This document shows positions 4,857 through 47,254 of a DNA stretch of 64,000 nucleotides, one piece after another. The DNA is taken from NCBI GenBank assembly GCA_030148915.1, contig JASBSN010000123.1, positions 1 to 64,000 on the forward strand, read 5' to 3'. The DNA is from Thiogranum sp. GTDB taxonomy: Bacteria; Pseudomonadota; Gammaproteobacteria; DSM-19610. The notes under the pieces were generated by a model. The model was not told where the DNA came from, searched no databases, and saw only the letters and a program-made list of their open reading frames with translations. The position numbers and the translations under genes were made by a program. Numbering within the stretch: position 1 is the stretch's first letter; each line of letters opens with the position of its first letter.

Positions 4857-6512
4857 CTAAGGGTCACCTTTAAAAGCGCCGAGAAGCAGCACCATTGCCA
4901 CTGCGCCGAGCAGCCAGGTCAGAAAAGGTGCGCCGCCGAGTACCAACAAGGGCGCGGAACCCGCCAGTGCATAGAGCAGCGTCGCGCAGATCAGTAGAAC
5001 TCCGCCGAGCAGGGCCAACAGCGTACGCCGTCCGGATCGTTGCAGCTGTTGGCGTAGTTTTTCCACATCCCGCGAATCCATTTGCAGGCGCAGTTTGCCC
5101 TCGGAGGCCTGCTGCAAGGTGCGATGCAGCAGACCGGGCAATTCCGGTAACCGCTCGCTCCACTCCGGCAGGCTGTGGCGTAGCCGCCCGGCAAAGGCGC
5201 GGACACCGACCTGCTCGCTCATCCAGCGTTCCAGAAAAGGCTTCGCTGTCTGCCACAGATCCAGATCCGGATACAGCTGGCGCCCCAGGCCCTCAATGTT
5301 GAGCAGCGTCTTTTGCAGCAGTACCAGCTGGGGTTGCACCACCATGTCGAAGCGCCTCGCCGTCTGGAACAGGCGCAACAGCAGGTGTCCGAAGGAAATC
5401 TCTTTTAACGGCCGTTCGAAAATGGGTTCGCAGACCGAGCGGATAGCGGCCTCGAATTCGTCCACCCGGGTGCCGTGCGGCACCCACTCCGATTCAACGT
5501 GCAGCTCGGCGACGCGCCGGTAGTCGCGGCGAAAAAAAGCCAGGAAATTTTCCGCCAGGTAGCGTTGATCCTCCGGACTCAGCGTACCCATAATACCGAA
5601 ATCAACCGCCATGTACTGGCCCTGCCGGGAGACAAAGATGTTTCCCGGATGCATGTCGGCGTGAAAAAAGTTATGTCGAAAGACTTGGGTGAAAAAGATC
5701 TCGACGCCGCGCTCCGACAGGCTCTTGAGGTCTACGTCGGACTGGCGCAACGTGCCCAGATCGTTAACCGGGATGCCGTAGATGCGCTCCAGCGTCATGA
5801 CGTTGCGCCGGCAGAACGGCCAGTAGACTTCGGGTACGTGCAGCAGCTCTGAGGTGCTGAAGTTGCGGCGCAACTGCGAGGCGTTGGCCGCTTCGCGCAG
5901 CAAATCGAGTTCGTCAAGGAGGGTTTTTTCGAACTCGGTCACCACTTCCCGCGGGCGCAGCCGACGGCCTTCACTCCAGTAGCGTTCCGCTAGTGCAGCT
6001 ATGGTTTTCAGTAACCCGACGTCGCGCCGGATAACCGTTTCGATCCCCGGTCGCAGGACTTTGACCACCACGTCCTCTCCGCTGTTGAGCGTGGCGGCGT
6101 GGACCTGAGCGATGGAGGCCGAGGCCAGTGGTCGGGTATCGAAGCGAGTGAAAATCTGGCCTATTGGCTGCTGGAAGGCCTGTTCCACGAGCTTACGGGC
6201 CAGTTCGCCGTCGAACGGCGCGACGCGGTCCTGCAACAAAGCCAGCTCGGCGGCAATGTCATCGGCAAGCAGGTCCTGGCGGGTGGAAAGGATTTGGCCG
6301 AATTTGACGAAGATCGGTCCCAGGTCTTCCAGCGCACGGCGGATACGCACCGCCCTTGGCGTTCGGCGCACAATCCGGTGCCAGGGCGCCAGGTAGCCGA
6401 GAAAACGTACCGGGCGGAAAAGATGCGTGGCCAGGACAATCTCGTCGAGACCGTTGCGCACCAGCACCCAGTTGATGTGCAGCAGGCGAAATACCTGCCC
6501 CGGTCTGATCAT
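4857..6512 (-). CDS. ubiB: Ubiquinone biosynthesis ABC1/UbiB atypical kinase
   Basis: [48 protein letters not shown]-terminal TM helices. Confidence 0.97.
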
Positions 6513-41657: not shown

Positions 41658-44143
<2,486 letters not shown>

Positions 44144-44214
44144 CTGTCCGGCGCCGGCGGCGTGGCGCCGATAATCTGTCATTATTTGACGGCACTTTGG
44201 CGGTTTGCGGTGGT

Positions 44215-44252: not shown

Positions 44253-44311
44253 CGGGTTTCCAACCGGCAGTTAGTATAAAACACAGTGGGTTAGAGGCGC
44301 TCTGTACATGT

Positions 44312-44327
44312 TGGCATCGGGATTGCA
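44312..44327 (+). promoter_or_regulatory. Candidate sigma54 promoter TGGCAT-N5-TTGCA (GG-N10-GC)
   Basis: TGGCAT 44312-44317, TTGC 44323-44326, invariant GG/GC separated by exactly 10 nt. Confidence 0.6.
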
Positions 44328-44519
44328 TTACTTAGACCAAGGAGCAGGGAACGGTACCGATGGATCGCTAAAGACTTTACCGGACCGGCCGCTCAAGGAA
44401 TTAGGTCGGGACTCCTGATCCAGGGACGGACGCTTTCGGACTGCGTCTTCGCAGGGATGTCGAGGATGCAATCCGAAAGACAGACGAACAGATTTTTTTG
44501 TTGTGTGACGACTCCTCCG

Positions 44520-44537
44520 ACGCTGAAAAGCGTTTTT
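44520..44537 (+). terminator. Intrinsic terminator 1 of a tandem pair (ACGCT-GAAA-AGCGT-TTTT)
   Basis: 5-bp stem with GAAA loop followed by T run. Confidence 0.65.
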
Positions 44538-44565
44538 ACCCCACCTTTTAGGTGGGGTTTTTTTT
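44538..44565 (+). terminator. Intrinsic terminator 2 (ACCCCACC-TTTTA-GGTGGGGT-TTTTTTT)
   Basis: 8-bp GC-rich stem followed by T run. Confidence 0.9.
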
Positions 44566-44674
44566 GTCTCTGTCTCCCGACGCGCCCAGCTTGAGCCACG
44601 GTCTGTCACAGGGGCAGTTCCTGTCGCCCCGTGTTGTACCAAACCCTACAGTTCTGGTAGGTTAGCTGGCTACA

Positions 44675-47254
44675 TTGCCGCGCACGGCAATATATCCGGC
44701 TATCGGCGAGGATCGACGGTTCATGCGAAGACCGCAAAGCCAAGCTCCGTTGTGGTTTCTCGACGGGGAGGGTGTATGCGCGGCCGCGGCACGCGCCATA
44801 GATTGGTCGCGCTCCTCGCTGGGCGCACCCGAGGACTGGCCCTCAAGCCTTAAAAGCACCCTGGCGATGTTGCTGCATTCGCGCCACCCGATGTTCCTGT
44901 GGTGGGGGGAGGAACTCATCCAGTTCTATAACGACGCCTACCTGCCAAGTTTTGGCCAGGGAAAGCACCCTGCTGCGATGGGCCAACGCGGCGCCGAGTG
45001 CTGGGGGGAGATCTGGCCGATCATCGCCCCGCAAATCGAAGATGTCATGCAGCGCGGTGTGCCGAGCTGGAACGAAGACCACCTGGTGCCGATTTATCGC
45101 AACGGGCGCCTCGAGGAGGTCTACTGGACCTACGGCTACTCGCCGGTGTTTGGCGACCAGGGCGCGGTGGCCGGCACCCTGGTGGTGTGCACGGAAACCA
45201 CTCCGCGGGTACTGAGCGACCGGCGGCTGCGCGCTCTCCAGACACTTGCCGAGGTTGTCAACAGCGCCGCTGGCGCTACCTCGGTTTTCAACCGCGTGGC
45301 GACGGTGCTGGGTCAATTTCCGCATGATCTGCCTTTTGCGCTGATTTTTAAGGCTGCGGCGCAACACGGCGTCGAACTGGCCGCCTCGGTAGGGCTGGAT
45401 GAAGGCGCTCGACAACAGCTGAGCACCGAGTTAGGCCCCTACTTATCGGCCCCGGAAGCGGACGCCGGGTTGCGGCCGAGAGGCATGCAGCTGCTCACGC
45501 TGACCCTCGAGGTACCGGGCAGCCCCTGGCCAGAAGCGGTCACGCAGGTCTACATGGTGCCTCTGGCCCCCTCCGCGCCGGACAGTATGCCCAGTTGGAT
45601 CGTGTTTGGGCTGAGTCCGCGCCTGCTTTTCGATGCCGGCTATCGGGAATACCTGCAACATCTGGCGGAGCGAATCGGCCAGGCGTTGGCGCGCCGGCAT
45701 GCCGCGCGCGAGCGGGCAAGGCTGCTGCGCGAAGTTCGCCTCGAACAGGAGCGTCTGGCCGATCTGTTTGCCCAGGCGCCCGCTTTCATGTGCGTCGTAG
45801 AAGGGCCCGAGCATATCTACTCGCTGGCAAACAAGCGCTATTACGAGCTCATCGGGCGGCGTGACATCATCGGCAAGAGCGTGGTCGAAGTTCTGCCTGA
45901 GATGAAAGATCAGGGGTTCGTCCAATTATTGGACGAGGTTTATCGCACCGGTCGATCGCATTTCGGTACAGATATGCCGGTCCAACTGTCACGCCAACCC
46001 GATCAGCCGGGAGAGCAACGCTTTGTCGATTTTGTCTATCAGGCCTTCCGCGGATCCGATGACGCGATACTCGGCATTGTCGTTCATGGAATCGACCAGA
46101 CCAAGCGTCACCATGCCGAACAGGCGATGCTGGAAGCCGATCGCCGCAAGGATGAGTTCCTGGCAATCCTGGCGCATGAGCTGCGCAATCCGCTGGCCCC
46201 GATTAATAACTACGCTCAGCTGCTGGAGCAGCGAGCGCATGAGCCGGCGGTGGTTGCCACGGCCGCCGCCGCAATGTTGCGCCAAGTGCGCCAGATGGCC
46301 AGGCTGATCGATGATCTGCTCGATGTCAGCCGCATCAGCAGCGGCAAGATTGAGCTGCGCCGTGACAGGGTCGCAATGGATTCGGTGGTGCAGCAGGCCG
46401 TGGATGCCACACAGCTGTACTACGAGCGTGGGCGCCGGCAGCTGGAGGTGGTGCTCCCGGCGCAGCCTATTTACATTGATGCCGATGCAGCGCGCGTCAT
46501 TCAGATAATCGGCAATTTGCTCCACAATGCGGCCAAGTTCACCGCTGAAGGGGGGCAAGTGTGGTTGGGCGTAGACCGGGAACAAGCCACCGCGGTGGTG
46601 CGGGTGCGCGACGATGGTATCGGCATTGCCCCGGCCCAGTTGTGCACTATTTTTCAAATGTTCTCGCAGGCCGACACGTCTCTGGAACGTACCGGCGGCG
46701 GGCTGGGTATCGGTCTGGGTTTAGTGCGCAGTCTGGTCGAGCTGCACGGCGGGACGGTAGAGGCGCTGAGTGAAGGCATCGGGCGGGGTAGCGAGTTCGT
46801 GGTGCGCTTGCCGGTGGCACTCGAGGCGTCAACGCGAGACAGTAGCGAATATTCTCTTTATGCCGCTGCCGTGGCGCAGACTCGCATCCTGATCGTGGAC
46901 GATAATCGAGACGCCTGTGACTCCATGGCACAGTTGCTTCGAGCCACCGGCCACGACGCGCAGACCGCCTATGACGGTCTGGCAGGCGTGGAGATGGCCG
47001 AGCAGTATAAGCCGGACGTGGTCCTGCTCGATCTTGGTATGCCCAAGCTCAACGGCTACGGCGCCTGTCAGCGCATCCGCGCACAACCTTGGGGTCGGGC
47101 CATGACTGTGGTCGCGCTGACCGGATGGGGTCAGGCCGAGGATATGCGCCGCACAGAACAGGCCGGATTCGACGCGCATCTCGTCAAGCCGGTGGATGTT
47201 GCCGCCCTGGAGGATTTACTGCGCTCGATGAAAGCGGTTAAAGGGGTCGGCTAA
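44675..47254 (+). CDS. PAS hybrid sensor histidine kinase with C-terminal receiver domain
   Basis: FLAILAHELRNPLAPINNYAQLL; GGGLGIGLGLVRSLVELHGG; ILIVDDNRDACDSMAQLL...VVLLDLGMPKLNG. Confidence 0.93.
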   Translation: MPRTAIYPAIGEDRRFMRRPQSQAPLWFLDGEGVCAAAARAIDWSRSSLGAPEDWPSSLKSTLAMLLHSRHPMFLWWGEELIQFYNDAYLPSFGQGKHPAAMGQRGAECWGEIWPIIAPQIEDVMQRGVPSWNEDHLVPIYRNGRLEEVYWTYGYSPVFGDQGAVAGTLVVCTETTPRVLSDRRLRALQTLAEVVNSAAGATSVFNRVATVLGQFPHDLPFALIFKAAAQHGVELAASVGLDEGARQQLSTELGPYLSAPEADAGLRPRGMQLLTLTLEVPGSPWPEAVTQVYMVPLAPSAPDSMPSWIVFGLSPRLLFDAGYREYLQHLAERIGQALARRHAARERARLLREVRLEQERLADLFAQAPAFMCVVEGPEHIYSLANKRYYELIGRRDIIGKSVVEVLPEMKDQGFVQLLDEVYRTGRSHFGTDMPVQLSRQPDQPGEQRFVDFVYQAFRGSDDAILGIVVHGIDQTKRHHAEQAMLEADRRKDEFLAILAHELRNPLAPINNYAQLLEQRAHEPAVVATAAAAMLRQVRQMARLIDDLLDVSRISSGKIELRRDRVAMDSVVQQAVDATQLYYERGRRQLEVVLPAQPIYIDADAARVIQIIGNLLHNAAKFTAEGGQVWLGVDREQATAVVRVRDDGIGIAPAQLCTIFQMFSQADTSLERTGGGLGIGLGLVRSLVELHGGTVEALSEGIGRGSEFVVRLPVALEASTRDSSEYSLYAAAVAQTRILIVDDNRDACDSMAQLLRATGHDAQTAYDGLAGVEMAEQYKPDVVLLDLGMPKLNGYGACQRIRAQPWGRAMTVVALTGWGQAEDMRRTEQAGFDAHLVKPVDVAALEDLLRSMKAVKGVG

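Follow-up and report, generated by a model that had tools for sequence, protein, structure and literature searches.

What is encoded in the roughly 230 nt between a hypothetical gene and a hybrid histidine kinase gene in Thiogranum sp. is the question raised by this locus, where a first-pass annotation proposed a GGA-rich small RNA (sRNA) with tandem terminators that titrates CsrA as CsrB and RsmZ do. The neighbours in the window (the whole stretch of 64,000 nt that was analysed) are those named there: a 203-aa hypothetical protein (43532-44143, ending ...HRDTLD and without a Pfam match) and a hybrid histidine kinase with PAS, HisKA, HATPase and REC domains (44675-47254). Conservation, RNAfold and covariation delimit on the forward strand, to which the parts and promoter sites of the gene given below also belong, an sRNA of about 229 nt (44338-44566), reaching from a predicted sigma-54-dependent start up to and including the second terminator. 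The annotation contained neither this sigma-54 promoter nor the sigma-28-like promoter, the invariant CTCCTCC module and the 6S-like relatives described below.

A DNA search recovered the gene from the majority of genomes in its genus, the conserved stretch beginning at 44310, with the sigma-54 promoter, and stopping past the last T-run. The RNA folds with an RNAfold z of -5.3. In a comparative alignment of 14 full-length sequences of the window's own form, which we call class A (243 columns), six helices were paired in 97.5% of cells and 16 pairs showed compensatory, both-side changes; none of 500 shuffles matched this structure, and sliding the partners collapsed the pairing. R1, a covariance model built from the class A body alone, matched in 14 of 20 genomes of the order (the Thiogranum/Thiohalobacter group; 10 of the 11 near-complete ones) and recovered the sister-genus copy, absent from the model, at E=2e-14, with no match outside the order among 387 genomes drawn from the class. 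A second copy was looked for in the same genome and none was found; no Rfam family reached its threshold, whether in the window or among those related loci that were scanned, and the literature that we searched does not describe this sRNA. The earlier view that the region holds no convincing ORF agrees with the ortholog indels, which are not multiples of three and therefore argue against one. Judged by conservation, covariation and the R1 matches across the order, 44338-44566 is a true, conserved small-RNA gene, so that this part of the annotation is strongly supported.

The GGA-rich body (44341-44466) contains, as had been counted, 11 GGA (at 44341, 44348, 44362, 44382, 44397, 44409, 44424, 44428, 44438, 44455 and 44464), with 7 ANGGA, and GGA is absent from 44467-44566 up to and through the terminators. 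No other 126-nt segment on either strand is as dense: 11 GGA per 126 nt was reached by 1 of 127,748 such segments (both strands; mean 1.6). Against dinucleotide shuffles of the sRNA itself the excess was milder (11 versus 7.1, p=0.02), and since the shuffles already yield 7.1 GGA, a GG- and GA-rich composition accounts for part of it. The CsrA-type motif ANGGA showed a clearer excess (7 versus 1.8 in shuffles), which is harder to explain by composition than the GGA count. Class A orthologs carry 6-12 GGA and 4-8 ANGGA each (1-2 expected), with ANGGA enriched at each of the 16 class A loci that were scored. The sister forms of the locus are mostly without GGA enrichment; GGA richness is confined to one lineage and is not family-wide.

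Folding did not bear out the expectation that the GGAs lie in loops: they were 0.31 unpaired versus 0.30 for the rest of the RNA, and exposure as a proof of sponge function was discarded. Helix 1 is formed by 5' GGAs with TCC partners, and only two GGAs are reliably looped in all orthologs. The loop of helix 3 (44384-44410, with 44384-44390 pairing 44404-44410 and 3 compensatory pairs) carries AAGGA, whose GGA is kept in 14/14 orthologs despite indels. Helix 4 is a long hairpin (44435-44477, with 44435-44450 pairing 44462-44477) whose loop is GGGATG, the GGA being present in part of the genus only. A small covarying hairpin with an NNGGA loop occurs in about half of the orthologs (examples are UAGCCA-NNGGA-UGGCUA, AGUCA-CUGGA-UGACU and AGCA-ACAGGA-UGCU, and AGGC-AGGGAAA-GCCU in the sister genus). 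The complementarity of CTTTCGGA and TCCGAAAG pointed out earlier does exist, whereas the CTGCG-TCTT-CGCAG hairpin placed within it is unsupported and was dropped, because the comparative structure pairs CTGCGTCTTC with GAGGATGCA in helix 4 instead (98% of cells paired, 7 compensatory pairs). Finally, GGACGGA at 44424-44430, a conserved GGANGGA, could pair with the CTCCTCC of the 3' module (GGANGGA:UCCUCC); its GGA letters are invariant in the 14 sequences.

Expression of the gene is predicted to start at a sigma-54 promoter (-24/-12) of the form TTGGCAT-N5-TTGC at 44311-44326, the only match in the window where 0.07 were expected. The predicted transcription start, 12 nt past the -12 box at about 44338, is the one that had been chosen by eye in the first-pass annotation. 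The element stands at the same place in 17/17 class A loci and is also found in most other loci of the family, and many of the distant loci found by the module model R2 (see below) have a sigma-54 promoter too; the predicted promoter is thus a conserved -24/-12 element at the 5' end of the RNA, the feature that marks a sigma-54-dependent sRNA. A FleQ-like inverted repeat, GTCATTATTTGAC (44178-44190), is a candidate activator site 133 nt upstream of this promoter. Perfect GTCA-N5/6-TGAC repeats were found in 6 of 29 loci, this one included, at 106-133 nt upstream, as compared to 0.5% of background stretches; a FleQ consensus of this type is one proposal and is itself disputed (PMC6120874). A search for common 5-mer palindromes upstream of the loci, as activator sites, retrieved none.

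A second fixed element, TAAAGACT-N11-GCCGCTCA at 44369-44395, resembles the sigma-28 (FliA) consensus TAAAGTTT-n11-GCCGATAA (PMC2859248) and would start a shorter RNA near 44400. The match is imperfect in the window (12/16 consensus letters; background p ~0.02), as scored with the published consensus. Family-wide the element takes the form T(A/C)AAG...N11...GCCGNTAA and lies between the sigma-54 site and the module; its distance from the sigma-54 element is 57-60 nt in this genus, against 47-50 nt for most other families. Of 38 loci, 36 match at least 11 of the 16 letters, compared with 8.6% of background stretches, and 27 match 12 or more (1.9% of background); these counts overstate independence since the loci are related, yet they cover several families and unrelated bodies. 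Two Thiogranum class B copies (L017 and L019) lack the element. A 5' TAAAG...CGCTA motif that had been considered as an RNA element was later recognised as this sigma-28-like promoter.

The same genome encodes FliA (315 bits, cut-off 201), and a single cluster in it carries FlhA, FliF, FlhF and sigma-54 activators of the flagellar type. Since the sigma-28-like element is held at a fixed spacing across several families, we read the gene as that of a flagellar-regulon sRNA, and, as far as its sequence tells, it appears to be switched on by both flagellar sigma factors, sigma-54 and sigma-28.

The 3' end consists of a 28-nt module, GACTCCTCCGACGCTGAAAAGCGTTTTT (44510-44537), in which CTCCTCC (44512-44518) precedes a GAAA-loop hairpin that forms the first terminator (44519-44537; 6-bp hairpin and 5 T), followed by a second intrinsic terminator (44538-44566) that is strong and shows compensatory changes. 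The back-to-back arrangement reported from the single sequence stands; the first terminator was overlooked by the scanner but does not vary among any of the class A relatives. The module is nearly identical in RNAs of classes A, B and C, whose bodies are unalignable, and its covariance model (R2) matched in 17 of the 20 genomes of the order and in further families of the class. The invariance of the first hairpin, set beside a second terminator that varies with compensation, suggests that the module is recognised by its sequence rather than serving termination alone.

In layout the tail resembles the betaproteobacterial double-hairpin sRNAs (RF02278: ncS03/05/27/62 and bdhR1; relatives S17 and anti-hemB, RF02837), with the CU-rich anti-RBS stretch, short hairpin and terminator hairpin with its T-run in the same order. 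For the Burkholderia double-hairpin RNAs, the CU-rich part is predicted to cover ribosome-binding sites (RBSs), with an effect on growth (PMC5688073). One known member of the RF02278 group has a longer 5' part, which is processed off; the sRNA described here differs from the group in its long 5' body and flagellar-type promoters. Scores of 21-31 bits against RF02278 and RF02837 (gathering 50 and 49.5) are too low for membership, the window reaching 24.3 bits and its relatives up to 30.7 with RF02278 (cut-off 50). The sub-threshold Rfam match of lowest E in the window, at 44513-44565, was Burkholderia anti-hemB (26.7 bits); this locus also adjoins hemB, and a distant common origin with anti-hemB is possible.

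Across families the locus keeps the order hemB-hypothetical-[sRNA]-hemF, and 12 of the 15 best-scoring distant loci (L102-L116) lie near hemB, the 203-aa hypothetical gene or hemF. In the window this order recurs, except that the hybrid kinase intervenes between the sRNA and hemF. The 203-aa protein is conserved beside hemB and the sRNA in several gammaproteobacterial families, and the hybrid kinase, which parts the sRNA from the rubredoxin/hemF neighbourhood of its relatives, looks like an insertion of this genome.

At this one syntenic place the bodies A, B and C differ, with the same promoters and tail. In other genera a class B body forms an unbranched rod between them, and the Rfam 6S model (RF00013) spans class B bodies from end to end with 41.7, 35.6 and 32.5 bits, below its cut-off of 46.4; the canonical 6S RNAs of those genomes lie elsewhere and score 73-105 bits. 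Conversely, a model built on six class B bodies (R3) recovered canonical 6S RNAs, precisely positioned, in about 12 loci, several at E < 0.001. The 6S model does not match the window's own class A RNA, whose genome has its canonical 6S elsewhere (82 bits). Class A and class B occur together in two Thiogranum genomes (G001 and G002). Class B bodies, about 160 nt upstream of the module, were seen at L020, L031, L032, L035, L102, L103, L107, L111 and L115, with sigma-54 and sigma-28-like promoters, the same 3' module and, in the genomes tested, a canonical 6S elsewhere. Class C was seen at L037 (CP070821, ~6100-6380), where a TGGGTCC/GGACCCA hairpin has a 21-nt loop with four GGAs and only the sigma-28-like promoter is recognised. 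By comparative sequence evidence this is an undescribed gammaproteobacterial RNA locus, in which the body depends on the lineage and the promoters and the predicted anti-ribosome-binding-site tail are constant; a second, 6S-like RNA in class B is possibly more surprising than the RNA of the window itself.

Several known sRNAs share single features with this one. CrcZ, GlmY/GlmZ and Qrr are likewise intergenic and have a -24/-12 promoter, but no sequence relation to them was found, and they differ from the present gene with its second, sigma-28-like promoter. Flagellar sigma control is also known for E. coli UhpU, MotR, FliX and FlgO (sigma-28) and for Campylobacter CJnc170 (FliA) and CJnc230 (RpoN); those sRNAs depend on a single flagellar sigma factor each and are UTR-derived or otherwise placed, whereas here both promoter types are predicted on one intergenic gene.

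Which function the RNA serves can be weighed from these observations. We lean, by a modest degree, towards an independent flagellar-regulon sRNA gene that would pair with RBSs through its tail and whose lineage-specific GGA body would dock CsrA. A less probable, though serious, reading makes it mainly a CsrA sponge, the genus's analogue of CsrB/RsmZ, in which GGA loops titrate several dimers and the module is a terminator only. Like CsrB and RsmZ, the RNA is intergenic, rich in GGA and equipped with its own promoter and terminator. The top GGA density of the window, the ANGGA enrichment in every class A locus scored, and the GGA retained in the helix 3 loop and in the covarying NNGGA hairpin would fit this, as would four csrA copies in the genome (one broken by an in-frame TAG). 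No CsrB (RF00018) was found at gathering score in the window or the 20 genomes, where the E. coli control was detected, and no PrrB_RsmZ (RF00166) over cut-off in the 20 genomes, which would fit as well; the same searches fail to place this RNA in either family. The GGAs, moreover, are mostly paired, two pairs of them engaged in helix 1 and as a possible cover of CTCCTCC; a start at the sigma-28 element removes five of the 11 and leaves six; the module is conserved far beyond the needs of a terminator, and relatives at the same locus are without the GGA richness. The sigma-54/sigma-28-type promoters also set the RNA apart from CsrB and RsmZ. The original sponge proposal finds partial support: the enrichment in orthologs, the two conserved loops and the presence of csrA speak for it, the pairing of most GGAs against it. 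Given the pairing, the loss at the sigma-28 start and the unenriched sister forms, we rank CsrA docking as likely but secondary. Among the csrA loci, L044 (G000:C25:32147-32341) encodes an unusual paralog with an insertion of about 20 residues past the first strand, and L045 (G000:C45:19322-19528) a similar one carrying the in-frame TAG.

The interchange of bodies A, B and C between constant promoters and tail, and the scoring of class B as 6S, could also mean that the body is a lineage-specific decoy for another protein (RNA polymerase, for the 6S-like form in related genera) and that GGA richness arose as a side effect of complementarity, both with the CU-rich tail and within helix 1. TCC partners do explain two of the GGA pairs, but pairing does not account for a looped GGA that survives register shifts, and we consider this improbable. 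That the sigma-28-like element is a conserved RNA motif, leaving sigma-54 as sole driver of a stress or nutrient sRNA in the manner of CrcZ, GlmY or Qrr, is a somewhat better prospect but still unlikely: the class A element coincides in part with helices 2 and 3, for which RNA covariation was seen, yet loci whose bodies are unrelated, and loci in which no sigma-54 site is recognisable, still preserve its N11 spacing and consensus. That the sRNA serves the hybrid histidine kinase as a leader or attenuator, as its same-strand position ahead of the kinase gene might suggest, is refuted by synteny and retains hardly any probability; two terminators intervene, and at other class A loci this place is taken by hemF or another gene, often in opposite orientation.

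In the flagellar-regulon reading that we favour, the sigma-54 promoter, for which a FleQ/FleR-type protein is the probable activator, would give the ~229-nt RNA and the internal FliA/sigma-28 promoter an RNA of ~165 nt, both with the invariant double-hairpin tail as their 3' end. CUCCUCC in the tail would pair with ribosome-binding sites and so repress chosen mRNAs. The GGA body may act in cis, by covering CUCCUCC through GGANGGA:UCCUCC, and in trans, by docking a few CsrA dimers, so that the tail would be tuned by CsrA or coupled to it.

More tentatively, and with more doubt than belief, the whole family might constitute a flagellar checkpoint locus of Gammaproteobacteria, in which tandem sigma-54/sigma-28 promoters and a constant tail are combined with bodies exchanged as decoys of different global regulators: in Thiogranum a GGA body that binds CsrA, in Thiohalobacter and others a second, 6S-like RNA as sigma-70 polymerase mimic. 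We know of no other 6S-like RNA under sigma-54/sigma-28-type promoters. If true, an undescribed and widespread sRNA gene would read out both steps of flagellar assembly and relay the signal to translation by RBS pairing, to CsrA and, in sister lineages, to RNA polymerase via the 6S-like body, and post-transcriptional flagellar control would become testable in sulfur-oxidising bacteria.
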